Assembly: GCA_016871755.1 (NCBI GenBank)
Contig: VHCJ01000002.1
Span: 1-64,000, forward strand
Direction: 5' to 3'
Origin: Verrucomicrobiota bacterium
Lineage (GTDB): Bacteria > Verrucomicrobiota > Verrucomicrobiia > Opitutales > Opitutaceae
Length of the DNA: 64,000 nucleotides
Within the stretch, counting starts at the first letter, position 1. The number at the start of each line of letters is the position of its first letter. Of this stretch, positions 6,193 through 30,404 are shown in pieces. The position numbers were made by a program, and so were the translations under genes. The notes beneath the pieces are model-generated. The model was not told the DNA's origin. It did not search any database and saw only the letters and a program-made list of their open reading frames with translations.

Positions 6193-7410
6193 TCACCGCC
6201 CCGCCGCCTCCTCGTGCCGACCGTCCGCTCGCTTGACCAGTCGTCCGCCGAGTTCGAGGCGGAGGATCACCGCCATCGCCCGCTCCGCCGACCAGCCCAA
6301 TCCAAGGGCGACGTCCTCCGTCGCAAGGATCGCCCCGCCGCGGAAGAGTTCGAGCACCGCCGCCTCGGCGGGCGAAGCTGGAGGAGGGATCAGACTCGAA
6401 CCCGGCGGCCGGTCCGCCGCAGTCTCATCTTCGCCTTCCCGGTGGGGGCGCCCGTCGCCGTCGGCCGGTTCCCCGCGCACCACGCCACGCGCGGCGTTGT
6501 CGGGAATCGGTCCGGGGCGAAGACCGCGAAGGTAGCCGAGTTCATCGACCACATCCTCGACCGAGGTCAGCAACACCGCCCCGTCGCGGATCAGCTGGTG
6601 GCACCCGGCGCTGGTCGGTTGGTCGATCCGGCCCGGCACCGCCAGCACGACGCGCCCTTGCTCGGCTGCGAAGCGCGCGGTGATCATCGAGCCGCCGTCG
6701 ACGTCGCTCTCCACCACCACGATCGCCGCACTCATGCCCGCCACGATGCGGTTGCGCATCGCGAAGGACTGCCGATCCGCGGGCCGCCCCAGCCGGAACT
6801 CCGACAGCAACGCTCCTTCGCGCGCGATCCGTTCCGTCAACGCCCGGTTCTCCGGCGGATAGACGAGATCCACTCCGGTCCCGAGCACCGCGGCGGTGCC
6901 GCCGCCCGCCTCCAGCGCTCCTTCGTGCGCAGCCGTGTCGATCCCCCGGGCAAGTCCGCTGACGACGCAGAAACCGCGCCGCGCCAGTTCGCCGCCCAGC
7001 CGCCGCGCCGTCGCGAGGCCGTACTGCGTCGTGCGGCGCGACCCCACGATCGCCACACAGGTCCGCCCCGGCTCGTAACGGCCCCGGCAGTACAGTCCGA
7101 TCGGCGGATCGTGAATCTCGCGCAGCAGCGGCGGATAGCCGTCGTCCGCCGCCGCCACAAATGCCGCCCCGCAGTCCTGGAGTCCGCGCTCCTCCGCCGC
7201 CAGATCGACGTGCGCGCGCCACGTGGCGAGTGTCGCCGCGATCACCGGCCCGACTCCGCGAACGGCCCGCAGCGTTTCCGGCGCCGCCGCCAGCACCGCC
7301 GCAGGATCACCGCCGCAGGCTTCGAGCAGTCGGTTCGCCGTGATCGGCCCGACGTGCGGGAGCGCATTCAGCACCAAAAGGGCCTGCGAGGGGGACAGCG
7401 CGGATTCCAT
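6193..7410 (-). CDS. dprA: DNA processing protein DprA/Smf
   Basis: Binds incoming single-stranded DNA and loads RecA during natural transformation. The 405 aa protein has an N-terminal helix-hairpin-helix part (LPHVGPITANRLLEACGG, TLRAVRGVGPVIAATL), then the Rossmann-like core with VGSRRTTQYG, SGLARGIDTAAHEGAL and the DLVYPPENRAL segment, and ends with a winged-helix-like tail (AVLELFRGGAILATEDVALG). An acidic/Pro-rich linker near residues 300-340 is lineage-specific. The ATG at 7410 (MESALSPSQ) was chosen because homology begins there; the in-frame extension upstream is Arg/Ala junk. It lies next to the S9 peptidase on the same strand, 76 bases away. Confidence 0.92.
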   Translation of the reverse strand: MESALSPSQALLVLNALPHVGPITANRLLEACGGDPAAVLAAAPETLRAVRGVGPVIAATLATWRAHVDLAAEERGLQDCGAAFVAAADDGYPPLLREIHDPPIGLYCRGRYEPGRTCVAIVGSRRTTQYGLATARRLGGELARRGFCVVSGLARGIDTAAHEGALEAGGGTAAVLGTGVDLVYPPENRALTERIAREGALLSEFRLGRPADRQSFAMRNRIVAGMSAAIVVVESDVDGGSMITARFAAEQGRVVLAVPGRIDQPTSAGCHQLIRDGAVLLTSVEDVVDELGYLRGLRPGPIPDNAARGVVRGEPADGDGRPHREGEDETAADRPPGSSLIPPPASPAEAAVLELFRGGAILATEDVALGLGWSAERAMAVILRLELGGRLVKRADGRHEEAAGR

Positions 7411-7629
7411 GCGCAACCCCTGCGGCGCGACAGCGCTGCGGGCAATTGCGGAGGCGGCCCGACGTCCGCCCAATTTAGGTTCGGACGCGCCAAACGCACC
7501 GGGGCTTGCCGGGCGATCATGACTCGATCGAACTCAGGGGCGCCGCCAGAGCAGGCTCCAATCGGCTGGGATCGGCGAACGGCGCCGGCCCGCACCGAAC
7601 GCCGGGGCGCGGCCGACCCGCGCTGGAGC

Positions 7630-8499
7630 CTAGACGCGTTCCCAGCGACTCGGGGCAATGCCGGGGGCGTCGCCGCGCATGTTCTTCGGCTTGTTCGGGT
7701 GGTTGAAGTCGAAGCCGCGGCGGACGTTCGGGTTTTCGAAGAACCGGGCGAGGTGCGGGGGCACCTGCGCCAGCTTGTCCGCCGGCCACGTCGGGATCTT
7801 CTCCTCCGCCGGACCCGCCCAAGCCGGGCGATACAAGTAAGCCAGCATGCCGCGCTCGCGCGTGCCGACGTTCGGGCAGTTGCCGTGAAACACCTTGTGG
7901 TTCAGCAGCACCGCCGAGCCCGCCTTCGCGGGCACCGCCACCTGCTCGGGATGCCCGGTGTACCGGGTGTAGGGATTGGCATCCGCGTGCATCGAGAGGT
8001 GCGACCGCGGCACGACGAGGAAGGGCGACACGTCCGCCGTCAGGTCATCCAGGTAGTACAGCACGCGCACCTGCACGGGACACGATCCCGCCCAGCCGAA
8101 GATCTGCGAGCCATAGGGCTGGCCATCCGTGTGCAGGCTGATGCCGGGGTGACCCGGCAGCGAGAGGGCATACACGCCGCCGAGGAAAAGGATGTCCGGC
8201 CCGAGCAGGGCCTCGAGGAACGCCACGGTGGGGGCATGCCCGACGAGGTTGATGAAGTCCGGTCCTTCCCACTGGATGCCGCGGCGCCCGCGCTGCTTGT
8301 CGCTGTAATCCGCCGGGATGGTCTCCAGCGGCGCCAACTGGCGCTTGAAGTTCGCCACCTGCTCGGGCGAGAGGAGGTCCGGGAGGACGACGTAGCCTTC
8401 AAGTTCGAGGTGACGGATGCGCTGGCCAAGGGTCAGCGCGGACCAATCGGTGGTGTCGAGCCGGAGGGGACCGGCGGAGGGGGCAAGGGCGGCATTCAT
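7630..8499 (-). CDS. phytanoyl-CoA dioxygenase family protein
   Basis: A non-haem Fe(II)/2-oxoglutarate oxygenase of 289 aa. The metal site is seen as HTDGQPYGSQ (His-x-Asp) near the middle and HKVFHGNCPN for the distal His. The Arg of GTRERGML is the likely 2-oxoglutarate anchor. The N-terminus carries LEGYVVLPDLLSPEQVANFK, a typical PhyH opening. The substrate is unknown; in related bacteria such proteins act on small hydroxylated metabolites or sugars. It is divergent from the regulator starting at 8746, which probably controls it. No clear ribosome site precedes the ATG at 8499. Confidence 0.85.
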   Translation of the reverse strand: MNAALAPSAGPLRLDTTDWSALTLGQRIRHLELEGYVVLPDLLSPEQVANFKRQLAPLETIPADYSDKQRGRRGIQWEGPDFINLVGHAPTVAFLEALLGPDILFLGGVYALSLPGHPGISLHTDGQPYGSQIFGWAGSCPVQVRVLYYLDDLTADVSPFLVVPRSHLSMHADANPYTRYTGHPEQVAVPAKAGSAVLLNHKVFHGNCPNVGTRERGMLAYLYRPAWAGPAEEKIPTWPADKLAQVPPHLARFFENPNVRRGFDFNHPNKPKNMRGDAPGIAPSRWERV

Positions 8500-8745
8500 G
8501 GGTGTGGGGGGAAAGTCGAACTCGGGAGGGGAACCGGCAGCGGGCTGGAGAAGTCCGGAGACCCGGTCGTCTCCGGCTGCACCCGCCGCCCGGCCAGCGC
8601 GCGGGCGCCGGACCGATCGCGGGTGCCTGTCCGCATCGAGCGCGCGGCGGGACCCCGGAGCAAGCATGCCACAGTTGTCTTTTCCCCACACATCTTCTGC
8701 CGGACGGGGATTGACCGCCCGGCGCGGCCCCGCAAGAACGCCGCC

Positions 8746-10038
8746 ATGCCGCTTGCGCTCCGACGTCTCAGCCTCGTCGACCAGGTCGCCGCGGCACTCC
8801 GGATGGAGCTCGATGCGTCGCGCTGGCCAACCCAGCTGCCCGGCGAGCACCAGCTTGCCGCCCAGCTGCAGGTGAGCCGCTCGACCCTGCGCCAGGCGCT
8901 GCAACTCCTCCGCCGCGAGGGCCGGCTCGCCGTGCGGCGCGGCAGTCGCTGGCGTCCTGCGTCCGACGACGGCGCGCGCCCCGGATCAGGGTCCGGCCGC
9001 CGCTCGCAGACCACCCCAGCCTCCCCACCGCGCGGGCGGTCCGAGCCCCGCCGCCCCGCTCCTTCCTCGCGCGGGTCGCGTCTGCCCTCAGGCATCCGCC
9101 CGGGGACCGGCTCGCCCGCCACGGTGTCGACCGTCGCCGCCGCGCGGACGCACTCCGCGCCGCCGGCGTCGGCGCAGGCGCAGCCACCGTCGGCCGACGT
9201 CGTGGCGATGATTTCGTCCCTGCCGCCGGCCGAGCAGTCGTGGTCCTCGATTCTGATCCGCGACGAACTGCGCGCCCAATTGCAGCGGGCCGGGCTGGAA
9301 TTGCAGACGCACGTAGTAGCCCAGCGCTCCCCGCGCAGCGGCGGCGCGGCGCTGCGGCGACTGCTGGCCCACGCGGGCGCGACCGCCTGGGTGCTGGCGT
9401 CGTGCTCCGAGGCGGTGCAGCGGCACTTTGAGGAGGGCGGACGACCAGCGCTGGTCCTCGGCTCGGCTCACCCGGGCGTGCGCCTGCCCGCCTTCCGCAT
9501 CGACCTCGGGGCCGCGCTGCGGCACGCCCTCGCCTCCCTTCAACGTCACGGGCACCGGCAGATCGCCCTGCTCCTGCCGCGCACGCCGTTCGCCGGCACG
9601 CGCGAGGTCGCCGCGAGCCTCGCCGAAGCGACGGCCTGGCTGCGCGAGCGGGGCATGGCGGTGACGGTGCGTGAGCATGAAAGCTCGACTCACGGCGTGG
9701 GGCTGGCGCTCACCGGGTTGCTCGCCTCGCAGGCCCGGCCGAGCGCACTCATCGTGATGCTGCCCGGCGACGCGCTCAGCGCGCTCGGGCACCTGCACGC
9801 GCGCGGGGTGCCCGTGCCGCAGGCCCTGTCGTTGATCTGCCTCTTCGACGATCCCTACCTCGCCCGGTTGACCCCGGCGCTCGCGCGCTACGCGTGCGAC
9901 CCGACGCTCTTCGTCCGTCGCCTCGCCCGGCAGCTGATCCGGCTCGTGCGCTCCGGCGTGCGGCCAACGCCCGTCGCGGTCGTGCCGGAGTTCATCCGCG
10001 GCGGCACGCTGGGGTCGTGCAGCAGCGACGGAGGCTAG
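8746..10038 (+). CDS. GntR-type HTH / LacI-like sensor transcriptional regulator
   Basis: A 430 aa DNA-binding regulator. Residues 5-65 form a GntR winged helix (LVDQVAAALRMEL, LPGEHQLAAQLQVSRSTLRQ, LLRREGRLAVRRGSRW). Residues about 70-145 are an Arg/Ser/Pro/Ala-rich linker. The rest resembles a LacI/GalR periplasmic-binding-like sensor (ALASLQRHGHRQIALLLPRT, ALIVMLPGDALSALGHLHARG). This architecture is common in Verrucomicrobiota sugar and metabolite loci. The ATG at 8746 is 246 bases from the divergent dioxygenase start, so the shared intergenic space is the likely operator region. The ligand cannot be predicted. Confidence 0.8.
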   Translation: MPLALRRLSLVDQVAAALRMELDASRWPTQLPGEHQLAAQLQVSRSTLRQALQLLRREGRLAVRRGSRWRPASDDGARPGSGSGRRSQTTPASPPRGRSEPRRPAPSSRGSRLPSGIRPGTGSPATVSTVAAARTHSAPPASAQAQPPSADVVAMISSLPPAEQSWSSILIRDELRAQLQRAGLELQTHVVAQRSPRSGGAALRRLLAHAGATAWVLASCSEAVQRHFEEGGRPALVLGSAHPGVRLPAFRIDLGAALRHALASLQRHGHRQIALLLPRTPFAGTREVAASLAEATAWLRERGMAVTVREHESSTHGVGLALTGLLASQARPSALIVMLPGDALSALGHLHARGVPVPQALSLICLFDDPYLARLTPALARYACDPTLFVRRLARQLIRLVRSGVRPTPVAVVPEFIRGGTLGSCSSDGG

Positions 10039-10322
10039 TCCGATCCCCAGCGCGGACGCGCCGCACCTGCGCTCGTTCGTCGGCGCCGCAGGCTCGGGGT
10101 AGTCGGACCACGTCGGCCACCGATCCCGCGCGCCCGCGGCGAATTCACCGACCGCGCCGAGTTCCCCGGTCTCCGTCCCATCGATCCCGTTCGCCCGCGG
10201 AGAGCTCAGCCGGGCCTGGAGTCCGAGGGCCAGGCCTCCGAGCCAACCGGGTCGAACCGAACGCACCGGGCGCGCATTGACGGCTTGCCCCCACCGGCAA
10301 GGCGGGGTTGGCTTCCGGCCCC

Positions 10323-10844
10323 ATGAGCACTGCACCCGCGAAAGAGAACGCCGTCATCAGCACCTCCTACGGTGACCTTACCATCGCCTTCTGGCCCGAG
10401 GTGGCCCCGAAGACGGTCGAGAACTTCAAGAAACTCGCCCGCGAGGGTTTCTACGATGGCACGGCGTTTCACCGGATCATCAAGGGTTTCATGATCCAGG
10501 GCGGCTGCCCGAACACGCGCGCCGGCGCCCGTGGGATGCCCGGCACCGGCGATCCGGGGTACAAGCTCAAGGCGGAGTTCAACGCCAAGTCCCACCAGCG
10601 CGGCGTCATCTCCATGGCGCGCGCCTCCGATCCGGATTCGGCCGGCTGCCAGTTCTTCATCTGCCATGGCAACGCGTCGTTCCTCGACCGCCAGTACACC
10701 GCCTTCGGCCAGCTCGTCGGCGGTGACGACGTGCTCGAGCGCATCGCATCCGTCCCGACCCGCGCGGGCGGCGGCGGCGAGCGCAGCACGCCGGTCGACC
10801 GCATCGAGGTCACCAAGGTGACCATCGTTCCGGCCGCCAGCTGA
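10323..10844 (+). CDS. peptidyl-prolyl cis-trans isomerase, cyclophilin type
   Basis: Catalyses prolyl bond isomerisation in protein folding. The 173 aa protein spans a single cyclophilin domain with no signal peptide, so it is probably cytoplasmic. Diagnostic blocks are FYDGTAFHRIIKGFMIQGGC (catalytic Arg in FHRI), GVISMARASDPDSAGCQFFI and the TAFGQLVGGDDVLERI tail. The N-terminal segment (TSYGDLTIAFWPEVAPKTVE) is typical of short bacterial cyclophilins. The ATG at 10323 was preferred over the in-frame TTG at 10308. It lies 70 bases before a D-threonine-aldolase-like gene on the same strand. Confidence 0.92.
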   Translation: MSTAPAKENAVISTSYGDLTIAFWPEVAPKTVENFKKLAREGFYDGTAFHRIIKGFMIQGGCPNTRAGARGMPGTGDPGYKLKAEFNAKSHQRGVISMARASDPDSAGCQFFICHGNASFLDRQYTAFGQLVGGDDVLERIASVPTRAGGGGERSTPVDRIEVTKVTIVPAAS

Positions 10845-16752: not shown

Positions 16753-18405
16753 CTACGGCAGGTCGTAGATCTCCACCAACGCCACGCCAGTCGTGCCGTT
16801 CTTGCCCGACACCGTCGCCGTGTAGGATCCAGGGGGCACGTCCACGATCACCACCGCATCGGCACTGGCTTCACCCGCGAGGGCGAAGGCGCCGACCGAC
16901 GCAAACGTCGTCTTCAGCGCCGCCGTCCCACCCCAGTTGTCGTTCGCCGCCGTCACCGAGGTCGCCCCGAGGGCTTTCACCTCCACCACCGGGTCCGCCA
17001 GCGTGCCCGTCACGCCGCACGCCCCCAGCGACGGCCCAACCGCCCGGATCAGGAGGCGCTTCGAGGCGGTGCCGACGATCGAAAAGCCCGCGACCAGCAC
17101 GTCCGCTCCGGTGCCAACCTGCGCGCGGGTGGAGACGTTGATCAGACGGCCGCGGCCCGCGCCAAGATCGTACAATTCCACCAAGGCGATCCCCGAGCCG
17201 CCGTCGGCCCCGGCCACCTGAATGGTCCGGCCACCCCGCACCGCCAGCCGGAGCGCCGCGTCGCGCGTGCCCGCCGTCAGGGGAAAGGCCCCGGCATTCG
17301 TGAAGTCGCGTCCCAGCACGCCGCTCGCGCCCCAGTCATCATTCGCCGCAATCCGCACCGCGTCCTGATAGACCTCCAGCTTGGGATCCGCGATCGTTCC
17401 GGGGACGCCGAACTGCGCGAGGCTGGGCCCAATGCCTCGCATCAGCACGTCCCGCGCGCCGCCGCCGACCACGAAGCCCACGATCAGGCCCGATCCCGTG
17501 CCGGTCCGGATCGAGAGGTTGTACAGCACGCTCGCCGGGCGCGCGGGCTCGGCTTCCTTCGAGACGATCGAGTACAGCGAGGCCTGCGTGGGTTCGACTT
17601 GCGGCCATTGCGTGAACGGCGTGTCGACCCACGCCACGAAATCGAGCTGCCCGGCGCCGTCGATATCCATCGGGACCGCCGCCGACAGCGCGCGGTCCAC
17701 GTAGCCCTTCGTCATCGCGTAACCCTCCAGCTGCCACGGCTGCACCCAGGGCAGGACCGCCCGGTCCTGCGCGCGCAAGACACCATCCGCCCCGCCGAGG
17801 TAGATCGTCGCGGCGTTCTTGGCCTTTTCGTCAAGCACTCGTCCTCCCAGGTTTCGCTGGTTCAGTTCCTCGCAGGCGACCACGAAGTCCGGCCGGCCGT
17901 CGCGGTTGAAGTCGGCCACGGCGAGCCGCACCTGATGGACGGTGCGCACCGGCGGTGCCCCGTTGGCCCAGATGTCGGGCGCGGCCCGGAAGCCCCCCTT
18001 GCCGTCGTTGAGGAACACCACCACGGGCTCCTGCGACTGCCGCGGGATGGTGTGGGGAAAGAGCGGGAACGTCGCGACCCAGTCCTCGCGCCCGTCGCCA
18101 TTGAAGTCGCCCCTCCCCACGTCGCCCAAGTCCGTGGCGAGCACGCCCGCCGGGTGGTAGTCCTTGCTCGTCGGGTAGTAGACTTACCCGTGTCGCTCGG
18201 TGATCGAAATGCCGAACCACCCGAAGTTCCCGACCCGGTAGCTGCTCGTTTCGTGGTTGGTGCGGTCCGGTCCGAGGGTCCGCGGCGAGGGCCCCAGCGT
18301 AAGCAGTTGGGCGAAGCCGAGGCTCGGGAGGAGCGCTAGGCCGAACGCCGCACCAAGCCGGCACGCGCGCGCGGCGGAAAGAGGATGGCCGGAAGCTGGG
18401 GGCAT
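16753..18405 (-). pseudogene. FG-GAP/VCBS repeat secreted protein, interrupted by an in-frame TAA
   Basis: Two reading-frame pieces in the same frame join into one protein of about 550 codons. Residues 1-33 form a signal peptide (ACRLGAAFGLALLPSLGFAQ). FG-GAP blocks follow (DVGRGDFNGDGREDWVATFP, LAVADFNRDGRPDFVVACEE, DIDGAGQLDFVAWVD). The rest is two tandem copies of a domain of about 130 residues, each ending in VALVE(I/L)YDL, with LLIRAVGPSLGACGV as a typical core. A TAA at 18184-18186 sits after ISITERHG and before VYYPTSKDYHPAG, where the frame simply continues. A GTG restart at 18144 would lack the signal peptide. It may be a young nonsense mutation or a sequence error. Confidence 0.75.
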
Positions 18406-18575
18406 CTCTCAAGGGTGCTGCCACGCCACCTCACTGCAACCCGAACCGGTCTTGGGGAGAATCCGGCCGGGCCGGCTCCGATCCTCGGCGTCGCCGGGCG
18501 GTCCGGCAGCCCTCCCACTGCCGGCGGTGCAGGCGGGGCTTGACGACGGGAGCAATTGCACGAGGGTTCAGCATA

Positions 18576-19034
18576 ATGTCGTTCGCGACCTCCCCGCTGC
18601 GCGCCTTCCGCCACCTGCGGCGGGTCGTCGCGCTCGGGGCGGTGGGCTTGATGCTGGCGCTCAGTTGGCTCGCCGTCGATGGCACCGCTCACGGCTCGCT
18701 CCACGTCGCCGCGTCCGTCGACCTTCCCGCAGCCTGCGGGCACGACCACGATCTCGGCACGGGCGGCGGTCACGCCGGTCACTCCGGCGACCCCGGGCAA
18801 CCCGGCGCCGGCCACACCCACGGCGGCGCGGGGACGGATGGGGCGTGCGACGACCCGGGCTGCGCGGTGCTGCGATTTGCCGCCGGCGCCACGGATCCCT
18901 TCCAGCCGCAGGTCGTGACAGGACCGTCACGTCGGTTCTCGCCCTGGGTCCAGGCTCCAGCGGCTGACCGGGAGCCGGATCGCATGCCCTTGGCGTGGCC
19001 GGCCCCCAGCTGCGGTCCCCCGCTGCGGGCTTGA
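18576..19034 (+). CDS. His-rich envelope protein, 152 aa
   Basis: A small protein of unknown function. A basic N-terminus and one hydrophobic segment (VVALGAVGLMLALSWLAV) suggest a signal peptide or membrane anchor. The exported part has a metal-ligand-rich region: CGHDHDLGTGGGHAGH, then HTHGG, then CDDPGCAVLRFAAG. A His/Asp/Cys cluster of this kind may bind copper, zinc or nickel, which is inference from composition. GAGGG lies about 9 bases before the ATG at 18576. It is 170 bases upstream of an ABC exporter operon on the same strand, so a link to that transporter is possible. Confidence 0.65.
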   Translation: MSFATSPLRAFRHLRRVVALGAVGLMLALSWLAVDGTAHGSLHVAASVDLPAACGHDHDLGTGGGHAGHSGDPGQPGAGHTHGGAGTDGACDDPGCAVLRFAAGATDPFQPQVVTGPSRRFSPWVQAPAADREPDRMPLAWPAPSCGPPLRA

Positions 19035-19204
19035 GTTTGCCCTGACTGCTCGGCGAGCCCCGCCCGGGACCGCCGTGATTCGCCTCCGGCCACGCCGCGA
19101 CCTCATGCCAAGGCGCGGGCGCTCCCGCCGCCTCACCCGACCGCCGGATCTCCGTCCGGGTCGGCACAACGAACCGCCAGAGCCTCCCCCAACCGACCGC
19201 GCCC

Positions 19205-19906
19205 ATGCTTTTCGCAGAAAAACTCCATAAACGCTACGGTTCAACCGTCGCGCTGCACGCCCTCGACCTCTCCGTCGCCCCGGGCGAACTCTACGCCCTG
19301 CTCGGTCCCAACGGGGCCGGCAAGACCACGACCATCAACTGCTTCCTCGGCTTCCTTGCGCCCGATGGTGGCCGCGTGACCATCGACGGCCTTGACGTCG
19401 GCCAACACCCCTTGGAGACGAAACAGCGCCTCGCCTACATCCCGGAGCAGGTGAACCTCTACGGCCACTTCAGCGCCGCGGAGAACCTCGCCTACTTCGC
19501 CCAGCTGGGCGGGCATCACTACGCCCCCGCGGAACTGCGCGAGCTTCTCGCCGCGGTCGGGCTGCAGCCCGAGGCCCACGAACGGCGGGTCAGCGGCTTC
19601 TCAAAGGGCATGCGCCAGAAGGTGGGGATCGCGATCGCGCTGGCGAAGCGGGCGAAGGCCCTGCTGCTCGACGAGCCGACCAGCGGGCTCGACCCCAGCG
19701 CGAGCCACGAATTCAGCCAGTTGCTGGCCAGGCTGCGCGGCCAGGGGGTGGCCATCCTGATGGCGACGCATGACCTCTTCCGGGCCAAGGAGGACGCGAC
19801 ACGCGTGGGAATCATGCGGCGGGGAACGCTGGTCCGCGAGCTCTCGGCCGGCGAAATCCGGGGAACCGACCTCGAGCGGCTCTACCTCGAAGCCATGCGC
19901 GCGTGA
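19205..19906 (+). CDS. ABC transporter ATP-binding protein
   Basis: The 233 aa ATPase subunit of an ABC-2-type exporter. Walker A is LLGPNGAGKTTTIN near residue 40, the signature is RVSGFSKGMRQKVGIA, Walker B is KALLLDEPTSGLDP, and the switch His lies in MATHDLFR. It resembles the CcmA/NosF-like ATPases of gliding or copper-related exporters. Its stop overlaps a possible GTG start of the first permease, so the three genes form one operon with translational coupling. The transported substrate is unknown. Confidence 0.93.
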   Translation: MLFAEKLHKRYGSTVALHALDLSVAPGELYALLGPNGAGKTTTINCFLGFLAPDGGRVTIDGLDVGQHPLETKQRLAYIPEQVNLYGHFSAAENLAYFAQLGGHHYAPAELRELLAAVGLQPEAHERRVSGFSKGMRQKVGIAIALAKRAKALLLDEPTSGLDPSASHEFSQLLARLRGQGVAILMATHDLFRAKEDATRVGIMRRGTLVRELSAGEIRGTDLERLYLEAMRA

Positions 19907-19971
19907 GCCCGAACCCCACCCAACCCAGTCCCCCGCCCAGCGGCGCCGCAGGGTCCGGACCGACCACACCC

Positions 19972-21387
19972 ATGCTCAGCACGATCATGCGTCATCAGTG
20001 GCAGCAGGCGCTGCGCGACCAGCGCGTGCGCTGGCTCGCGATCGCCCTCATCCTCGCCGGACTCGCGGCGCTCCTGAGCGGATTGGCCCGCCAGCAGCGG
20101 CTGTCCGCCGAACGCGCGGAGGCCATCCGCGCCGACGCCGAGGCGTGGAGCCGGCAGGGCGTCGTCGATCCCCACGGTGCCGCCCACTTCGGGCGGACGG
20201 CGTTCAAGCCGATCTCGCTGCTCTCCGCCCTGGATCCGGGCCTGCTCGACCACATCGGTTCCCTGGTGCGCCTCGAGGCCCACAAGCAGAACGTGGCCAG
20301 CGGTCGTCCCAGCGATGCCGGCACCGCCCTCACCGCGTTCGTGCCGTTCACTGCGGCGTCGGCGCTGCAGATCTTCGCCCCGGTGCTGATCATCCTCACG
20401 GGCTTCGGGGTTTTCTCCGGCGAGGCCGCCCGCCAGATCCTGCGGCTTGAACTCGCCGCCGGGATCCCTCCGCGCGTCCTCCTGATGGGGCGCTTCCTCG
20501 CCCTCGGGGGCGGCGTCGCCGGCGTCCTTGGTCTGTTCGGCCTCGCCGGCGCCGTGGGTCTCTGGCTGACCGATGCACCCGCACCCGACTTCGCCCGGCT
20601 GGGTCTGCTGCTGGTCGGCTACGGGGCGTACCTCCTGACGTTCCTCGCCCTCACCCTCGGGATTTCGGCGCTCTGCGTCTCCGCCCGACCCGCCCTCGCC
20701 GGCCTGCTCGCCTTCTGGCTCGCCACGGTCCTGCTGGTGCCGCGGATCGGTCCCTCGCTCTCCGCCCAGGTCTATCCCGTTCCATCCGTCCCCGTCTTCG
20801 CCAACCAGGTCAGCGAATCAATCGACGACGGCCTCGACGGCCATGATCCCCGCCACACGCGGATGGATCGGCTGCGGGCGCGGGCCATGGCCCAGTACGG
20901 CGTCACCCGGATCGAGGACCTTCCCGTCAACTTCGGCGGGCTCGCCCTGGAGTACGGCGAGGCGGCCACCACCCGGGCGTATCAGCAGCACTTCGACGCG
21001 CTCTTCACGAACTACGAACGGCAGTCGCGCTTGCTGCAGGCCCTGAGTCCGCTGTCGCCCCGGCTTCCGCTGCAGGGTTGGTCGGCGGGACTCGCGGAGA
21101 CGGATTTCGCCGCGCACCGGGCGTTCCTCCAGGACGCCGAGCAGTACCGCTACGCGTTCGTGCAGGCGCTGAACCAGGCGGTGGTCAGGTCCACCCCAGG
21201 ACAACCGCGCGCCGCGGTCCGGGTCGCCGACATCACCGCGGAGGTCGATCGCGCCGCCGGTCACTCCGTCACGCTCGGCGAAACGTGGCGACGCCAGTGG
21301 TCCAACGGCGTCCTTCTCCTCACCTGGCTCGGCTTCTCGGTGGGCTTCGCCCTCTGGGCGGCCGGCCGCCTGCACCGACTCTCATGA
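19972..21387 (+). CDS. ABC-2 type transporter permease, DUF3526-like, first copy
   Basis: A membrane subunit of 471 aa. The N-terminal helix follows MLSTIMRHQWQQALRDQRVR; a large soluble loop spans about residues 40-110; several more hydrophobic segments follow (for example FLALGGGVAGVLGLFGLAGA and GLLLVGYGAYLLTFLALTLG). A second soluble region lies at about 265-440, with a closing helix (LLLTWLGFSVGFALWA). A GTG at 19903 overlapping the ATPase stop as GTGA would add a Pro-rich 23-residue head; I prefer the ATG at 19972, where the helix-forming N-terminus begins. The stop overlaps the next permease start as ATGA. Confidence 0.82.
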   Translation: MLSTIMRHQWQQALRDQRVRWLAIALILAGLAALLSGLARQQRLSAERAEAIRADAEAWSRQGVVDPHGAAHFGRTAFKPISLLSALDPGLLDHIGSLVRLEAHKQNVASGRPSDAGTALTAFVPFTAASALQIFAPVLIILTGFGVFSGEAARQILRLELAAGIPPRVLLMGRFLALGGGVAGVLGLFGLAGAVGLWLTDAPAPDFARLGLLLVGYGAYLLTFLALTLGISALCVSARPALAGLLAFWLATVLLVPRIGPSLSAQVYPVPSVPVFANQVSESIDDGLDGHDPRHTRMDRLRARAMAQYGVTRIEDLPVNFGGLALEYGEAATTRAYQQHFDALFTNYERQSRLLQALSPLSPRLPLQGWSAGLAETDFAAHRAFLQDAEQYRYAFVQALNQAVVRSTPGQPRAAVRVADITAEVDRAAGHSVTLGETWRRQWSNGVLLLTWLGFSVGFALWAAGRLHRLS

Positions 21388-22805
21388 ACGCGTTGCTCAC
21401 CGTCGTCCGCCACGAACTCCGCCGCTTGGTCCGGGACCGGGCGACGCCCGTGCTCGCGTTGCTCTTCGCCGCCATCTGTGTCTACGCGGCGTGGAACGGG
21501 CAGCGCTGGGCCGGTCAACGCGGGGAGGCGCTGCGGCAGATCGGGATCGATCTGCAGGAGTCGCGCGATGACTCGCGCGCCCGCGCGGCCGCCGCCGCGG
21601 CCGCCCAACCCGGGCGGACCTTCAGTCAGGGATCGGTCTCCGCCAGCGTGTGGTACCAGCCGACGCTGCCGTTGCGGCCGCTCGCGCCGCTCGCCATCGG
21701 GCAGGCCGATGGCTACCCCTTCGACGTCCGGTTCCATCCGGTCAGTCCGCGGACGCTCTTCGCGCCGCGGGAGGCGAGTCTCAGCAACCCGGCCGCCCTC
21801 GCGGCCGGATCCTTCGATCTGGCCTTCGTCATCGTCTACCTCCTGCCGGTCTTCCTTCTCGCCCTCACCTACGACCTCTGGATCGGGGAGCGCGACCGCG
21901 GCACGGCGCGACTGCTCCTCGCGCAACCGGTCCCACCGCAGGTGCTGTTCGCGGGCAAGGCGATCGCTCTCGGCGGCACCGTGCTGCTGGGGCTCGCCGC
22001 GCTTGTGGGACTGGCCCTCCTGACCTTCGGCGGAGCGGGTGGGGTCAGCGGGCCGGCGCTGGCCGCGCTGGGCGGGACGGTCCTGCTCTACGGAGCCTTC
22101 TGGGTCGCCGTGGCCCTCGCGGTCAACGTCTGGGTGCGCCACGCCGCCGGCGCCGCCCTCGCGTGCGGCGCGATCTGGCTCGGGGTCACCGCCCTGCTGC
22201 CCGCCCTGCTCACCGCCGCCGTCGATTTCACCCATCCGGCGCCTTCCAGCGCCGCCTACTCGAACCGTCTGCGGGAGGTTGAACTGGAACGCCAGGACGT
22301 GCGGCGCCAGCAGGCCCCGCCCGCCCGCAGCACGGCCGAGCGCGAGGATCGCAACGCCGCCCTGCGGCGCACGCTCACCCAGGTCGCGGAGGACATGGCG
22401 GCCTACGCGCCGGTCCGCGACGCCTTCCGGTCCAGGGAGCACGCACGCCGGAACCTCGCCCATGATCTCCGCTTCGCCTCGCCCGCGACCGCCGTGCAGG
22501 ACAGTCTCGAGCGCCTGGCCGGGACGGACGCCGCCCGCGCCGTGGCCTTCCAGGAGCAGGCATGGGACTTCGCGCAGGGCCTGCGGGCCCACGTCGAGGC
22601 TCACCTCACCGAAGCGCCCCCCGAAGACCTTCCCCAGCTCTACGCCGGCGTGTCGGTCTTTCGGTTCACGGAGCCACCCGCCACGGAGGTCCGCGAAGCG
22701 CTCGCCGCCAACGCCGCCGCGCTGCTCAGCTTCCTCATTGCCCTCGGCACCGTGATCGGCAGCGGGATCCAGCGGACGCGGCTCGTGGACGAGGACGCGC
22801 CTTAG
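21384..22805 (+). CDS. ABC-2 type transporter permease, DUF3526-like, second copy
   Basis: The second membrane subunit, 473 aa. It opens MNALLTVVRHELRRLVRDRA with the first helix (VLALLFAAICVYAAW), and later contains SFDLAFVIVYLLPVFLLALT, then DLWIGERDRGTARLLLAQPV, a conserved cytoplasmic element of ABC-2 permeases. The C-terminal helix follows EVREALAANAAALLSFLIAL. The general layout mirrors the first permease, suggesting an old duplication and a heterodimeric channel. ATGA overlap with the upstream gene indicates coupled translation. Confidence 0.85.
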   Translation: MNALLTVVRHELRRLVRDRATPVLALLFAAICVYAAWNGQRWAGQRGEALRQIGIDLQESRDDSRARAAAAAAAQPGRTFSQGSVSASVWYQPTLPLRPLAPLAIGQADGYPFDVRFHPVSPRTLFAPREASLSNPAALAAGSFDLAFVIVYLLPVFLLALTYDLWIGERDRGTARLLLAQPVPPQVLFAGKAIALGGTVLLGLAALVGLALLTFGGAGGVSGPALAALGGTVLLYGAFWVAVALAVNVWVRHAAGAALACGAIWLGVTALLPALLTAAVDFTHPAPSSAAYSNRLREVELERQDVRRQQAPPARSTAEREDRNAALRRTLTQVAEDMAAYAPVRDAFRSREHARRNLAHDLRFASPATAVQDSLERLAGTDAARAVAFQEQAWDFAQGLRAHVEAHLTEAPPEDLPQLYAGVSVFRFTEPPATEVREALAANAAALLSFLIALGTVIGSGIQRTRLVDEDAP

Positions 22806-22842
22806 CTTGCGACACCACTCGCGACGGCCGTCCGCATCCCGG

Positions 22843-22863
22843 GAGGGTCAGCTTTGTCCTTTG
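22843..22863 (+). repeat. GGTCAGGCTTTG-type interspersed repeat, copy D
   Basis: Reads GAGGGTCAGCTTTGTCCTTT then G, with one G missing from the core relative to copy C. It lies between the second permease and tRNA-Ser. Confidence 0.6.
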
Positions 22864-22989
22864 TTCTCGCCGGACCGGTCGGCGGCATGGGGTAGATGCC
22901 CGAGCGGGCCGTCGGCGGGCGGGCGGGCGACCGCTCATTTTCGACTTCCGTTTTCGACCGCCGCCGGTACCGTCTCCCTTCCTGTGCCT

Positions 22990-23079
<90 letters not shown>

Positions 23080-23147
23080 GTTTCTGCCGAGCCTCAGGTC
23101 GGCAGTCGGGTCGGCAGGAGACTTTCGGTTCCGCCAGCCCACCCACG

Positions 23148-23460
23148 ATGGGACGTTTTCTCACGCTGCTCCTGCTCACCGCCTTTGCCTGCGCTACGTC
23201 CGCTCAGGCTCAGCCTGCGAATGCGGTCTGGTCGGCCGAGGATCGGCACGAAGTGATGACCGCCTTGCAGACGACCCGCAAGGATCTCCTCGACTTGGTC
23301 AAGCCGCTGTCGGAGCGGCAATTCTTTCATCGCCTCGACGCCAAGGGCTGGTCGGCGAACGACATCGTCGAGCACCTCGGGCTGATCGAGGAGGGTTAGG
23401 TCAGGGAATTTTGGTGGGCGCTGTCTCAACCTCCGATGCCCGCTTCCTACCGCGAGGCCA
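23148..23460 (+). pseudogene. DinB-like secreted protein, truncated remnant
   Basis: The frame starts with a signal peptide (MGRFLTLLLLTAFACATSAQ) and continues with a DinB/YfiT-like helix pattern (DLVKPLSERQFFHRLDAKGW, NDIVEHLGLIEEG). A TAG at 23397-23399 interrupts it, but the same frame goes on as VREFWWALSQPPMPASYREA, where EEG-Y-VREFWW would be a natural join, so TAG probably replaces a Tyr codon. Homology then stops near 23460, where a cas2 fragment begins in another frame. Both the nonsense codon and the loss of the C-terminal half mark it as dead. Confidence 0.7.
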
Positions 23461-23461
23461 C

Positions 23462-23728
23462 CGCCGGTCAGCCGCCACGGCCTTCCGGGACTTTTTGTTG
23501 GATGACGGCTTTCAAATGATGCAACTCAGCGTCTATATGCGCCCCTGTGTAAGTTTCGCCCGCCAGGAAACGCATATGGACCGGACCAAAAAAAGCATCC
23601 CACCCGAAGGCAAGGTGCGGGCCTTCTTCGTCACCCGCGCCCAATGGGAACGCGCCTTCGTCATCTACGGATCCCCCGCCAAAGAGGTCTGCCCAGAGCA
23701 AATGCCCGAACAGATTCAGCTCTGGTGA
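23462..23728 (+). pseudogene. cas2: CRISPR-associated Cas2, 5'-truncated remnant
   Basis: The frame gives RRSAATAFRDFLLDDGFQMM, then QLSVYMRPCVSFARQ, then PPEGKVRAFFVTRAQWERAF, ending MPEQIQLW. This is the Cas2 ferredoxin-like fold from its first helix to its end, and the PEQ-x-QL-aromatic tail is typical of Cas2 next to type II-like adaptation modules. About 20 N-terminal residues, including the first strand with the metal-binding Asp, are missing, because the upstream sequence is DinB-like. An ATG at 23516 could start a still shorter product. It ends 41 bases before the first CRISPR repeat, the usual cas2-leader-array order. No cas1 or effector gene is in the window. Confidence 0.75.
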
Positions 23729-23769
23729 AATCTCACAAACAGTTCTCCAAAAAGTAATTCCGGGGGGCG

Positions 23770-23873
23770 GAGTCTCCACCCCTAGGAATTGGAATCAAGG
23801 CAAAGCCCTCATCGTTGACTCTTCCCAATCGCGACCGAGTCTCCACCCCTAGGAATTGGAATCAAGGCAAAGC
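23770..23873 (+). CRISPR. minimal CRISPR remnant: two 37-bp repeats, one 30-bp spacer
   Basis: Two identical 37-base repeats at 23770-23806 and 23837-23873 begin GAGTCTCCACCCCTAGG and end ATCAAGGCAAAGC. They flank a single 30-base spacer (23807-23836). Flanking bases differ on both sides, so the repeat length is exact. Repeat and spacer sizes and the position right after a cas2 remnant support CRISPR origin. With only two copies a chance duplication is possible, and no anti-repeat (tracr-like) sequence was found nearby. The 41 bases between cas2 and the first repeat would be a shortened leader. Confidence 0.7.
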
Positions 23874-24323
23874 ACGGGGTTTCGGGAGTCTGGGCAGCAA
23901 ACGCCGCCAGAGGCCAAGGAAACACCGCTACAAGGGCAGCGGGCGGAGAGGGCTAGTTGTGCCTCGCACCAGCCTTCCCTCTCGCGACCTTCAGAAACTC
24001 TCGATTGGCCTTCGGTGAACCGTTTCCCGCAGGGTTGCGGGAGCGCCTTTGTGGGCAAATTTGGGGGAACGGAAGCACCTATCTAAATGATTCCTTGCCG
24101 TCGGCTTTTCGATCCCCTCCCCCGGGTCTGGATTGATCCGGGATGAGTCCGGATCGACCCTTCCTGTGGACCCCTTCAAGCGCTCGCGGCCTCAGATCCC
24201 GATCAACTAGCGCAAGGGTCCGTTGGGTGGGCGGGATGCTTCCAGCAAAAGGACCGACTCCGGCGCTCAGCGAGTTGCGTTTTGTCCCCTTTGTGTCCCC
24301 TAACGGGGCCCTCACTTCGAAAA
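23874..24323. other. 450-base gap without a supported gene, accessory scar
   Basis: No coding sequence is convincing. The composition is visibly less G/C-biased than the chromosome around it, in keeping with the foreign DNA of the CRISPR scar on its left. It ends next to the 3' end of tRNA-Leu. No direct copy of either tRNA 3' end was found, so an integrated element boundary cannot be claimed. Confidence 0.5.
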
Positions 24324-24408
24324 TGGTGCTCAGGAAGGGACTCGAACCCTTACGCCTTACGGCACACGCCCCTCAAACGTGTGTGTCTACCAATTCCACC
24401 ACCTGAGC
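24324..24408 (-). tRNA. tRNA-Leu(GAG)
   Basis: An 85-base class II tRNA on the minus strand with acceptor GCTCAGG/CCTGAGC, discriminator A and encoded CCA. The anticodon loop TTGAGGG gives GAG (24372-24374). The T-arm reads GGTTCGAGTCC. Confidence 0.93.
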
Positions 24409-24527
24409 GACTCGAAAACCGAGGAAGGGCGACTAAGCGAAATCGGCCCGCCGGTGTAAAGCCTCATTTTCACGGCCCCCAAGATCCGCTTTGACGTTCC
24501 GGGTCCCGCCGGGCGTCATTCCGGCTC

Positions 24528-25454
24528 GTGGCCTCGACGCTCGCCGACATCACCGACGCGCTGCTCCGCTCCTACGAGCGGGACGGCGGCATCAATCACT
24601 TCGACGGCACCAACCTGCCGTCCGAGGAATCGGTCAACCGGCTGTGCTCCGACTTCATGCGGCTGCTCTTCCCGGGCTTCTTCGACCAGGATCCGCTCCA
24701 CCGGGACGCCGTGCCCGCCACCACCGGCCGGCGCGTCGAGGAGGTCCACCGTCGGCTGGTCACCGAGCTCGAGAAGTGCCTGCGGTTCTCCCGCAACCCG
24801 GATCCCGCCGCCGCCGCCAGCGCCCTCGCCATGGCCGTCCTCGGCGAATTGCCCGACATCCGCCGCGCCGTCCACACCGACGTCGTCGCCGCCTACGAGG
24901 GCGATCCCGCCGCCCGCAGCGTCGAGGAAATCATCCTTTCCTACCCGTGCGTGCTCGTGATCTCCCTCCAGCGCATCGCCCACGCGCTCTACCGGCGCGA
25001 GGTGCCGCTGCTGCCGCGCATGATGACCGAATACGGGCATGAGCGCACCGGCGCCGATATCCATCCAGGCGCCCGGATCGGCTCCCACTTCTTCATCGAC
25101 CACTGCACCGGCGTCGTCATCGGCGAAACCGCCCGCATCGGCAACCACGTCAAGATCTACCAGGGGGTCACGCTCGGCGCGAAATCCTTCGTCACCGACG
25201 ACCAGGGTCGGCCGGTCAAGGGCGTGCAGCGCCATCCCCGGCTCGACGACCATGTGGTCGTCTACCCGGGCGCGACCATCCTCGGCGGCGACACGGTCAT
25301 CGGGGAACACTGCGTGGTCGGTTCCAATGTCTGGCTGATGGAGTCCATGCCGCCGAACACGATCGCGTACTACCAGGGCGACCAGGCGTCGATCATCCGC
25401 CCGCGCAAGCCCCGCGGGACGGGGAACGAGACCGCCAGCGACTGGGTCATCTGA
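24528..25454 (+). CDS. cysE: serine O-acetyltransferase
   Basis: Makes O-acetylserine from serine and acetyl-CoA, the first step of cysteine synthesis. The 308 aa protein has a helical N-terminal part to about residue 175, then the left-handed beta-helix hexapeptide region: YGHERTGADIHPGARIGSHF, FIDHCTGVVIGETARIGN, VKIYQGVTLGAKSF. The catalytic His/Asp are in FIDHCTGVVIG. The long N-terminal domain is of the EpsC/SAT-like type, not the E. coli one. The start is GTG at 24528; no ATG fits. cysS lies 3.6 kb downstream but is not linked. Confidence 0.92.
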   Translation: MASTLADITDALLRSYERDGGINHFDGTNLPSEESVNRLCSDFMRLLFPGFFDQDPLHRDAVPATTGRRVEEVHRRLVTELEKCLRFSRNPDPAAAASALAMAVLGELPDIRRAVHTDVVAAYEGDPAARSVEEIILSYPCVLVISLQRIAHALYRREVPLLPRMMTEYGHERTGADIHPGARIGSHFFIDHCTGVVIGETARIGNHVKIYQGVTLGAKSFVTDDQGRPVKGVQRHPRLDDHVVVYPGATILGGDTVIGEHCVVGSNVWLMESMPPNTIAYYQGDQASIIRPRKPRGTGNETASDWVI

Positions 25455-25515
25455 CGAAGGCGCGGCGCCCCGAGGCTCCCGGGCCGTGCCGCGGGCAGCG
25501 GCGGCCGGCGACGCT

Positions 25516-26580
25516 TCAGCGGCGATCGCGTTCCGCGAGGGCACGGGCCAGCACGGCGGCGAGGCGGGGGCCACGGAAGACGAGCCCGGAGTACACCTGC
25601 ACGAGCGTCGCCCCGGCATCGAGCTTCTCGGCGGCACTGGCCGGATCGCTGATGCCACCCACCGCGATGATCGGGAGGCGACCCTGCGAGCGGAGCGCGA
25701 CGTACCGTACAATCTCCGTCGCCCGCCGCCGCAGGGGCTCCCCGCTCAGGCCGCCGGCCTCGCCAACCTGCGCGAACGCCCCGGGGCGCGCCAGCGTGGT
25801 GTTCGTCGCAATCAGGCCGTCGAGCCCGAACTCCGCCACCGTGCCCAGCACGGCGTCGATCTGCGGCCAAGAAAGGTCCGGCGCGATCTTGAGCAGGATC
25901 GGTACCCGCCTCCCACCCGGACGCGCCGCCGCCGCCCGGTTCGCGCCGGTCACCGCCGCCAGCAACTCCCGCAGGCGGTCTTCATCCTGCAGCTTGCGGA
26001 GGTCCGGCGTGTTCGGACTTGAGACGTTCAGGACGAGATAGTCCGCGAAGGGCGCCAGGCGCTCGAAGCTGGCCAGGTAGTCGGCCGGCGCCTGCTCGAT
26101 CGCCGTCACCTTCGACTTGCCGAGGTTGATGCCCAGCGGGATCGGCCGCCGACCCCGCGGGGGCTGCCGCGCCAGCGTCCGCGCCACCGCCTCGGCACCC
26201 GCGTTGTTGAAGCCCATCCGGTTGATCAGCGCCTCCTCGGCGGGAAACCGGAACATGCGGGGCGCCGGGTTCCCCGGCTGCCCCAGCGCCGTCACCGTCC
26301 CCACCTCCACGTGACCGAATCCCAGCGCCGCCGCTCCCGGCCAGGCCCGCGCGTTCTTGTCGAAACCCGCCGCCAGACCCACCCGGTTCGGGAAATCCAG
26401 CCCAAAGGCCCGCACCGGTGCATACCGGCAGGGGTCCAGCCGCGAAATCCGCTCCGCCAGCACCCGCAGCGGCCCCAGCCGCCCCAGCAGTTCCAACCCC
26501 TCCACGCCCAGCTCGTGAGCACGCTCCGACTCCAGTCGGAACAGCAACGGCCGCAGTGCCTTTTCGTAGAGAGAATCCAT
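25516..26580 (-). CDS. pyrD: dihydroorotate dehydrogenase, class 2 (quinone)
   Basis: Oxidises dihydroorotate to orotate in pyrimidine synthesis and passes electrons to quinone at the inner membrane. The 354 aa length and an N-terminal helical segment before the barrel (MDSLYEKALRPLLFRLESER) are class 2 features. The barrel shows GLAAGFDKNARAW, INRMGFNNAG, NVSSPNTPDLRKLQ with the catalytic Ser, LLKIAPDL and IIAVGGISDPASA. The ATG at 26580 matches the usual amphipathic start of the family. It is divergent from the acidic-tail gene at 26727. Confidence 0.95.
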   Translation of the reverse strand: MDSLYEKALRPLLFRLESERAHELGVEGLELLGRLGPLRVLAERISRLDPCRYAPVRAFGLDFPNRVGLAAGFDKNARAWPGAAALGFGHVEVGTVTALGQPGNPAPRMFRFPAEEALINRMGFNNAGAEAVARTLARQPPRGRRPIPLGINLGKSKVTAIEQAPADYLASFERLAPFADYLVLNVSSPNTPDLRKLQDEDRLRELLAAVTGANRAAAARPGGRRVPILLKIAPDLSWPQIDAVLGTVAEFGLDGLIATNTTLARPGAFAQVGEAGGLSGEPLRRRATEIVRYVALRSQGRLPIIAVGGISDPASAAEKLDAGATLVQVYSGLVFRGPRLAAVLARALAERDRR

Positions 26581-26726
26581 GCCGACCCCCAGCCTAGGAA
26601 CCACCCCGGCCGAAAACAAGCACCCCGGGTCACTCCCACCCGACAAAAAAAGCATTTTCCCGGTTTGACTCGCGACGAACCCCGCGCTTTTGCTCCCGAA
26701 ATTCCCCTCACTGCGGAATCACACTC

Positions 26727-27551
26727 ATGGCAAAATCCTCTGGCACTCTCGACTGGTGCAACGTCCGGCTCGGCGACGACCACAACTGGTGGGTCGACGA
26801 AGTGAGCGACCCCGTGCGCTGGGACGTCGATGGCCTGAGCATCATCGACCCCCGCCAAGTCGCCCATCTCATCGAATCCGTCGAGCCGCTGCGCGACTAC
26901 GGTTTCGACCAGGACGTGATGGAGTCCGCCTTCATCCCCTTCCGCATCGAAAAGGACCTCGGCAGCGGCAAGGTGCGTCTCAAGCGGGTCAAGGACTCGA
27001 TCTTCGAGTCCGAGGAAAAGCTCTTCGCCCTGCCCGACATCGTCGATGAGGAGAACGGCCCGTTCGCCGACCTGCTCGACCACCTCACCCGTTGCCGCGT
27101 CAAGATGCTCAATGACGTCTTCGACTTCGAGCAGAAGCTCAGCGTCGACGAGGTCGAGGACGAGATCCGCGAGGACCAGAACGCCGAATTCATGGAGGGC
27201 AAGGCCATCCACTCCTTCAATGAGCTGTGCGGCATCCTGGACTACGCCCCCGCCGGCTGGGAGGGCGAGGAAGAGGGCGAGGAGAAGCCGAGCGTCGACG
27301 AGGGCGAAGGCGAGGACCTGCCCGAGATCGACGAGGAGGACGAGAAGGCCCTCGAGGGCGATTCTTCCCTGAAGTGGGACGAGGACGAGGAGGGCGGCGA
27401 GGGGGACGGCGAAGAGAAGCCCGCCTCCGGGGACGATGACGAAGACGAGGACGACGAGGACGGCGAGGACGGCGACTCGGAGGACGAGGAAGAGGAAGAG
27501 GACGACGACGAAGGGTCCAAGCCACCCGCCAAGGGTCGTCGCCGCCGCTGA
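26727..27551 (+). CDS. conserved hypothetical protein with a long acidic tail
   Basis: I do not recognise a named family. The 274 aa protein has a folded-looking N-terminal part to about residue 175 (GTLDWCNVRLGDDHNWWVDE, FRIEKDLGSGKVRLKRVKDS) and then about 90 residues dominated by Glu, Asp and Gly, closing with a basic patch (KGRRRR). The tail resembles acidic chaperone-like or DNA-mimic segments, but that is only composition. No signal peptide or membrane segment is present. It is followed by a strong terminator and appears monocistronic and divergent from pyrD. Confidence 0.75.
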   Translation: MAKSSGTLDWCNVRLGDDHNWWVDEVSDPVRWDVDGLSIIDPRQVAHLIESVEPLRDYGFDQDVMESAFIPFRIEKDLGSGKVRLKRVKDSIFESEEKLFALPDIVDEENGPFADLLDHLTRCRVKMLNDVFDFEQKLSVDEVEDEIREDQNAEFMEGKAIHSFNELCGILDYAPAGWEGEEEGEEKPSVDEGEGEDLPEIDEEDEKALEGDSSLKWDEDEEGGEGDGEEKPASGDDDEDEDDEDGEDGDSEDEEEEEDDDEGSKPPAKGRRRR

Positions 27552-27657
27552 TCCGCCCGCCGGCTCAGGCACCCCGCGCCGGGAGCGTCAGACCGCACCG
27601 GGGAAGCAGGGCCAGCGCCGGGGAAGCCAAGTGAAGGCTTCTCCGGATGTCCGCGCC

Positions 27658-27685
27658 AAGGACCGACCACCGTCGGTCCTTTTTT
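27658..27685 (+). terminator. Rho-independent terminator after the acidic-tail gene
   Basis: AAGGACCGAC (27658-27667) pairs perfectly with GTCGGTCCTT (27672-27681) around a CACC loop, and the T run extends to 27685. It lies 106 bases after the gene stop. Confidence 0.88.
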
Positions 27686-27767
27686 CGCGCCCGCAGCCTT
27701 GGCCCGGAGACTTGGCCCGGAGACCCGCCCCAGAGCCCCGACCCGCAGTCCCGGCCCGCAGTCCGGG

Positions 27768-28781
27768 TCAGAGGGACAGCTCGGTCGCCATGTCCTTGGC
27801 GAAATACGTCAGGATCATGTCCGCCCCCGCCCGCTTGATCGCCAACAGCGACTCCCGGCGGGTCCGAGGCAGGTCGAGCCAGCCGCGCTCGGCCGCCGCC
27901 TTGAGTTGGGCGTATTCGCCTGAGACTTGGTAGGCCGCGACGGGCCGCTGGGTGGCGTTGCGGATCTCCCGGATGATGTCGAGGTAGGGTCCGGCGGGCT
28001 TGACCATCAGGACGTCCGCTCCCTCCGCCTCGTCGAGTGCGGCCTCGATCAGGGCCTCGCGGCGATTGGCCGGGCTGACCTGGTAGCCGCGCTTGTCGAG
28101 CGAGTGCGTGCCGGCGGCCTTGGCGCTGCCGATCGCGTCGCGGAAGGGACCGTAGTACGCCGAAGCGAACTTGGCCGAGTACGCCATAATCGCCGTGTGC
28201 GTGCAGCCCGCCGCATCCATCGCGCGGCGGATCGCCCCGACCCGCCCGTCCATCATGTCGGACGGGGCGACGAAATCGACGCCCGCCTGCGCATGCAGGA
28301 CCGCCATGCGGGCGAGGACTCCGACCGTCTCATCGTTCGCGACAGTTTCACCGTCGGCATGAAGAATCCCGTCGTGCCCGTGCGTCGTGTAGGGATCCAG
28401 GGCGATGTCGGTCATCACGCTGATCTGCGGCACCGCCGCCTTGACGGCATGCACCGCGCGGATGACGAGGCCGTTCGGATCGAGCGCCCGGGTGCCGCGT
28501 TCGTCCTTCAGGCTGTCCGCGAGCTTGGGGAAGAGCGCCACGGCGGGAACGCCCAAGCCCGACAGGGTGCGGCACTCCTCGACCAAGTCGGCAATGCTCA
28601 GGCGGGACACGCCCGGCATGGACGCTATCGGCTCCGGGGCCCCGTTCCCCTCGACCACGAACAGCGGGGCAATGAAGTCCGCCGGGGTCAGGATCGTCTC
28701 CTCGACGAGGCTGCGCAGTGCGCCGGTCCGGCGCAGCCGCCGGGGCCGGTGGGTGAGATCGAGCTTGAAGTCGGAGCTCAT
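27768..28781 (-). CDS. hemB: delta-aminolevulinic acid dehydratase (porphobilinogen synthase)
   Basis: Condenses two 5-aminolevulinate molecules to porphobilinogen in haem synthesis. The 337 aa protein has both active-site lysines visible in KFASAYYGPFRDA and MVKPAGPYLDII. At the metal site, where zinc enzymes carry a triple-Cys motif, this one reads DIALDPYTTHGHDGIL, so it should be a Mg-dependent type as in Pseudomonas or Bradyrhizobium. The ATG at 28781 (MSSDFKLDLTHRPRRLRRT) was chosen over a TTG seven codons earlier. The gene is convergent with the terminator of the acidic-tail gene. hemA lies 12 kb away. Confidence 0.95.
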   Translation of the reverse strand: MSSDFKLDLTHRPRRLRRTGALRSLVEETILTPADFIAPLFVVEGNGAPEPIASMPGVSRLSIADLVEECRTLSGLGVPAVALFPKLADSLKDERGTRALDPNGLVIRAVHAVKAAVPQISVMTDIALDPYTTHGHDGILHADGETVANDETVGVLARMAVLHAQAGVDFVAPSDMMDGRVGAIRRAMDAAGCTHTAIMAYSAKFASAYYGPFRDAIGSAKAAGTHSLDKRGYQVSPANRREALIEAALDEAEGADVLMVKPAGPYLDIIREIRNATQRPVAAYQVSGEYAQLKAAAERGWLDLPRTRRESLLAIKRAGADMILTYFAKDMATELSL

Positions 28782-29036
28782 ATTCGCGTTGTTGCCATCC
28801 AATCACGCCATGGCCCGGGTCGCCACACGTTTTTTCGCGGTCTGCCGCCTCGCCGAGGCGTGTCGAACGCCGCGCGCCGGCGCCTGAGTCCGTGGTCGCT
28901 GCCCGGCCGCGCGACCGGCTGCAGGTGCCGGCCCTCCTGTCCCCCGGCACCCTTCAACGAGGGCGGAAATTGACGTTTCCCACCCGCCCCCGGCCCTGTT
29001 AGGGCTCGACCTTCGCTTTTTCTTCCTCACCACCGC

Positions 29037-30404
<1,368 letters not shown>

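Follow-up and report, generated by a model that had tools for sequence, protein, structure and literature searches.

The locus

Within the window, i.e. the entire 64,000-nucleotide stretch of Verrucomicrobiota DNA that was analyzed, two 37-nt repeats (cas2-proximal copy, 23770-23806; distal copy, 23837-23873) are identical at 37/37 positions and enclose a single 30-nt spacer (23807-23836), all three placed on the minus strand, the sense expected for the crRNA. The first-pass annotation described these repeats and the spacer exactly and was equally accurate on the distance from the Cas2 frame: the gap between the cas2 stop and the array is 41 nt (23729-23769, unstranded), and its right end partly matches the first repeat in inverted orientation. 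Among exact direct repeats spaced by 40-120 nt in the window, this 37-mer is the longest, the next reaching 17 nt, and the maximum was 11-12 nt in 8 first-order Markov simulations. A search of the 3.67-Mb assembly to which the window belongs, allowing up to 3 mismatches, gave no copy of a 29-nt repeat core beyond these two, and the exact 37-mer has no match in viral contigs. The locus thus shows the near-identical direct repeats and the unique spacer of similar size that define a CRISPR array; as the window holds two copies only, regularity was judged from the arrays of relatives.

The array is preceded by a fragment of a type II cas2 gene (23470-23728, plus strand) that is open to its natural stop and contains no internal stop codons. 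The frame matches Pfam PF09827 (E = 6.5e-12), PADLOC Cas2_II (E = 1.6e-25) and NCBIfam TIGR01573 (E = 1.2e-11), and the first-pass reading of it as a fragment holds, homology to the intact copies starting only at 23470, the earliest position of DNA homology to intact relatives. Compared with these relatives, the N-terminal ~25-26 residues are absent, including the FDLP strand: the front of the intact proteins contains VVAFDLP, and homology of the window protein begins at the FRxFLLDDGFQM region. The missing strand would carry a catalytic Asp. The remaining 87 amino acids are 75-89% identical to the Cas2 of the four closest genomes, all from the same family. Against the intact copies of three of the related genomes (G062, G060 and G081), dN/dS of the fragment is ~0.04-0.08, with dS near or at saturation, compared to 0.04-0.10 among the intact pairs themselves; G019, in which the extracted copy differs in length, was excluded from this comparison.

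Directly abutting the cas2 fragment, in a different frame, is the 5' part of a DinB-like gene (23148-23469, plus strand), with an in-frame stop at 23397-23399 and a Pfam DinB_2 match that is below the gathering score (E = 3.1e-4); its right edge was set at the start of cas2 homology, 23470. A search of 57 genomes for an intact relative of the DinB-like part, meant to place the left boundary of the putatively lost locus, matched only the genome of the window itself and so gave no left boundary. A longer open frame spanning the junction (22562-23728) covers the tRNA-Ser gene and was not accepted as a real gene.

The neighbors on the two sides are tRNA-Ser(cga) (22990-23079, plus strand) and tRNA-Leu(gag) (24324-24408, minus strand). 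An Rfam search of 18000-30000 detected both tRNAs; the remaining matches were two that overlap tRNA-Ser but do not reach the gathering score and two at chance level. Seven loci around tRNA-Leu were compared in congeners: similarity to the window extends rightwards from 23961 in G003 and from 24320-24324 in the six others. The first-pass annotation had considered that relatives might keep the duplication without cas genes; this is not the case, the repeat being found in none of these seven loci, including that of G003 which shares the right flank, and in none of nine congener genomes, which also lack cas2 matches (0/9). For 23081-23960, neither the G003 locus nor the G005 locus provides a credible match. 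In G005, an ABC-transporter gene and tRNA-Ser are located on a different contig from tRNA-Leu, and tRNA-Ser points in the opposite direction; thus, the site coincides with a break of synteny.

Complete loci in related genomes and missing components

Relatives of the window Cas2 were detected in 15 of 141 genomes (own genome included). In three genomes of the same family that belong to other genera, G062, G060 and G081 (loci L020, L021 and L022, respectively; coordinates of the latter two refer to the reverse complement), a complete locus is present, with the order cas9, cas1, cas2 and then the array; a type II cas operon is accordingly found in each of the three, compared to a cas2 fragment only in the window. 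The full locus that the first-pass annotation proposed to look for in relatives therefore exists, with a repeat matching that of the window at up to 33/37 nt (L020) in the same position after cas2. The arrays consist of 9 (G062), 15 (G060) and 11 (G081, the eleventh truncated) repeats spaced by 66-68 nt. The L020 proteins, the ones for which models were checked (Cas2 being queried from its second residue), match models for Cas9, type II Cas1 and type II Cas2. The cas9 gene of G060 is broken into two frames (L021, ~7165-10400), so that this system may be failing too, or else the split is a sequencing error. Like these type II-C-like loci and those of other Verrucomicrobiota, the window has the same repeat length, spacing and repeat core, and cas2 beside the array; unlike them, it has lost the front of cas2, retains two repeats, and lies in a genome where cas9, cas1 and tracrRNA were not detected.

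In that genome (G000), neither the TIGR01865 model nor the L020 Cas9 gave a match; among the seven genomes searched with L020 Cas9, G060, G062 and G081 were positive and G000, G003, G005 and G047 negative. The L020 Cas1 was likewise without a match in G000, in a search run without a positive control. A tracrRNA pattern occurred in two of seven genomes and not in G000, this strict pattern also missing the G060 copy because of a 1-nt indel, and no tracrRNA-like element was found in the window. The assembly is a draft of 144 contigs, 97.4% complete, and a gap in it could hide cas genes; within this draft, no complete cas operon was found to accompany the array, as is characteristic of CRISPR remnants and orphan arrays.

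The exact 30-mer spacer, as well as either of its 22-mer ends, is absent from viral contigs. When 3 mismatches were allowed, a search of 141 genomes recovered the spacer in a single genome, at its original site and with no second match there, and BLAST searches of phage and plasmid sequences returned seven records each, with best E values of 0.6 and 0.4, which were taken as chance matches. The suggestion that the spacer might still name an old invader thus found no credible target in these searches.

Orientation of the array

In L020, L021 and L022, an element GGAATCAAG(T/A)CAAAG is located upstream of cas9, on the opposite strand, and is followed by a hairpin within ~90 nt (by eye); it has the look of a tracrRNA-like anti-repeat. 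Since the sense of this element is that of the plus-strand repeat, crRNA is predicted to come from the minus strand, opposite to the cas genes; the same would apply to the crRNA of the window array, in which the repeats are oriented as in the relatives. Transcription of crRNA opposite to the cas genes is given as the rule for type II-C in PMC6737040. L022 and L011 have a truncated repeat at the end of the array away from cas2; no such distal decay was seen in the other loci, in several of which the array runs off the end of the sequence. The truncations would agree with the mutated first, i.e. oldest, repeat of type II-C arrays described in PMC12080349. Taken together, a minus-strand crRNA and truncated distal repeats indicate that the part of the array retained in the window is most likely the newest, spacer-acquiring end. 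The order cas2-leader-array assumed in the first-pass annotation is thus correct insofar as the array directly follows cas2, as in the relatives, but fails in the transcriptional sense, since with crRNA read from the minus strand the cas2 side would be the 3', spacer-acquiring end and not the leader.

In L022 (11933-11990), a short hairpin, its 9-bp stem perfectly paired, starts with the last bases of the truncated distal repeat, an arrangement that fits what PMC12080349 describes for type II-C as insulation of the first repeat.

An inverted copy of the repeat on the cas2 side

About half of the related loci have a cas2-side flank of 30 nt that reproduces, in inverted orientation, the variable half of the repeat next to it; between lineages, this flank changes together with the repeat. 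Pairing scores and folds locate such flank-repeat inverted copies at 23740-23806 in the window, 10785-10853 in L020, 6187-6253 in L062 and 5495-5559 in L079. Eleven of 19 arrays, including that of the window (at 0.04), scored above 95% of shuffled flanks and eight did not. When flanks and repeats were swapped among 16 cas2-adjacent arrays (of the 19, L066, from the same genome as L021, and both L078 and L063, which lack an adjacent cas2, were dropped), a flank paired with its own repeat scored 15.9 on average vs 9.7 for the swapped pairs; the observed sum was reached in 0 of 5000 permutations, which does not translate into a clean probability given that some of the loci are related (L062/L073, L009/L010 and others) and hence not independent. 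Counting against the pattern, low flank scores were obtained for L008, L011, L012, L059, L069, L070 and L081 (6-10) and L022 (12); L022, L070, L011 and L059 have instead self-complementary stretches in the flank (by eye). Far flanks scored ~10 in 15 of the 16 arrays, the remaining one being too short, and this control consists partly of spacer sequence because the arrays of L008, L009, L012 and L059 reach or approach the end of the sequence. The window flank scores 14 with its own repeat, barely above the swapped mean of 12.8, and reaches its best score, 23, with the repeat of a relative.

Folding of four chosen examples gave z scores of -2.1 (window), -4.4 (L020), -7.7 (L062) and -4.8 (L079), the window value corresponding to -22.8 kcal/mol for a minus-strand RNA of 23735-23806. 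Terminator-like sites numbered six where 1.5 would be expected; no such site coincides with the repeats or with the hairpin on the cas2 side, which counts against a terminator reading in the window; a scan of 23100-24320 yielded no sigma-70-like promoter. Tentatively, and with the balance somewhat against it, one may propose that, in this branch of type II-C, the repeat at the acquisition end and its inverted copy in the flank form a stem, either as a minus-strand RNA hairpin or as a DNA cruciform, and that this stem terminates the array or marks the site for insertion by Cas1-Cas2; the window flank would then be an older version, as it pairs better with the repeat of a relative than with its own. 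Such structures were sought in a type II-C study (PMC12080349) upstream of the array, that is, at the other end. Our literature search retrieved no paper plainly on such structures at the acquisition end, and none that combined Verrucomicrobia, type II-C CRISPR and tracrRNA. If functional, the inverted flank copy would matter more than the stub itself.

Origin of the stub

It is highly probable that the window stub is what remains of a type II-C CRISPR-Cas9 locus lost by deletion, with the cas2-side end kept. The first-pass interpretation, a collapsed CRISPR locus, is supported by the intact cas9-cas1-cas2-array loci of the three relatives and by the failure to find cas9 and cas1 in the own genome. 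A complete type II-C locus (tracrRNA, cas9, cas1, cas2 and array) would once have been located between tRNA-Ser and tRNA-Leu, in a stretch that found no match in the congener loci examined; a deletion would have taken out tracrRNA, cas9, cas1 and the front of cas2, fusing the remainder to a truncated DinB-like gene, with the array reduced to two repeats and one spacer at its cas2-side end. We infer that a single deletion underlies this history. The loss was probably recent relative to the divergence of the genera, considering that dN/dS of the cas2 fragment resembles that of intact pairs. The open cas2 fragment and the identical repeats show that decay has barely begun, which fits a recent loss but would also fit retained function. 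The stub is most likely inert because, without Cas9, Cas1 and tracrRNA, neither spacer acquisition nor guided complexes would be possible.

Several other explanations were weighed against such a remnant. Least probable, to the point of being negligible, is a chance duplication or a dispersed non-CRISPR repeat, both raised in the first-pass annotation: there are indeed two copies only, but the repeat is about three times as long as the simulated maxima, it has no other copy in the genome, and relatives carry homologous long arrays beside cas genes. An artificial junction of the DinB-like gene, cas2 and the array, produced by chimeric assembly or binning of metagenomic sequence, is improbable as well; the draft state of the assembly and the lack of a credible counterpart of 23081-23960 in G003 and G005 would be compatible with it, but the site is inside a 232-kb contig and its right flank, from 23961, matches a congener.

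Function is, if anything, slightly harder still to credit. The mini-array could work with Cas9 and tracrRNA supplied in trans, from an assembly gap or a mobile element, and the identical repeats, the open cas2 fragment and an assembly only ~97% complete leave some room for this very unlikely option, against which stand the missing cas9, cas1 and tracrRNA matches and the absence of any further repeat copy within 3 mismatches. Retention for some other job, e.g. as a minus-strand small RNA or a decoy, appears just as unlikely: the undamaged repeats and the predicted hairpin at the cas2-side end, which is followed by a T-run on the minus strand, speak for it, but no sigma-70-like promoter was found around the array, the terminator scan did not call this hairpin, the spacer has no second match in its own genome, and the repeat does not occur in the congeners. 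The stub is therefore filed as a CRISPR remnant, ordinary in kind, rather than a working type II-C system. Isolated or orphan arrays (PMC5294841, PMC6737040) similarly consist of an array without a working cas operon and are read in these papers as possible remnants; CRISPR-Cas loci with lost cas genes are already known (PMC5294841). The difference from these orphan arrays is that in the window the history is visible, thanks to the cas2 fragment and the intact relatives.

Other stubs in the same repeat family

Matches to the pattern RRAWTTGGAATCAAGGCAAAGC were found in 24 stretches of the collected genomes, by title 20 from Verrucomicrobiota, two from Lentisphaerae, one from Desulfocapsa and one from Bacilli, compared to an estimated chance expectation of ~1 match in a collection of that size. 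Within the available sequence, cas1 and cas2 are present in 12 of the 24, and seven (L061, L063, L065, L067, L072, L074 and L075) contain a single exact match, that in L072 being cut by the contig end and that in L067 looking like a solo full repeat. Similarly to the window, L024 (genome G047), L067 and L063 carry one or two repeats of the family and no cas genes detected in the sequence examined; only in the window was a cas fragment detected beside the repeats, the others having been searched with the L020 Cas proteins only. Thus, loss of loci in this repeat family recurs, other stubs of the family being in existence. The value of the window stub lies in presenting a clean, apparently recent loss for which intact relatives are available, and in pointing to a mostly Verrucomicrobiota repeat family with recurring stubs.

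In a Chthoniobacter metagenome-assembled genome (L061, 655-2062), cas1, cas2 and one repeat of the family are present, with no cas9 match within 8 kb. In G047, a solo repeat that is 92% identical is found at L024 16698-16735, with no cas match in 18 kb and no Cas9 match in the genome. In an Opitutaceae metagenome-assembled genome (L063, 2561-2645), with no cas match in 8 kb, two repeats, one of them with a changed core, are 67 nt apart and form another stub.
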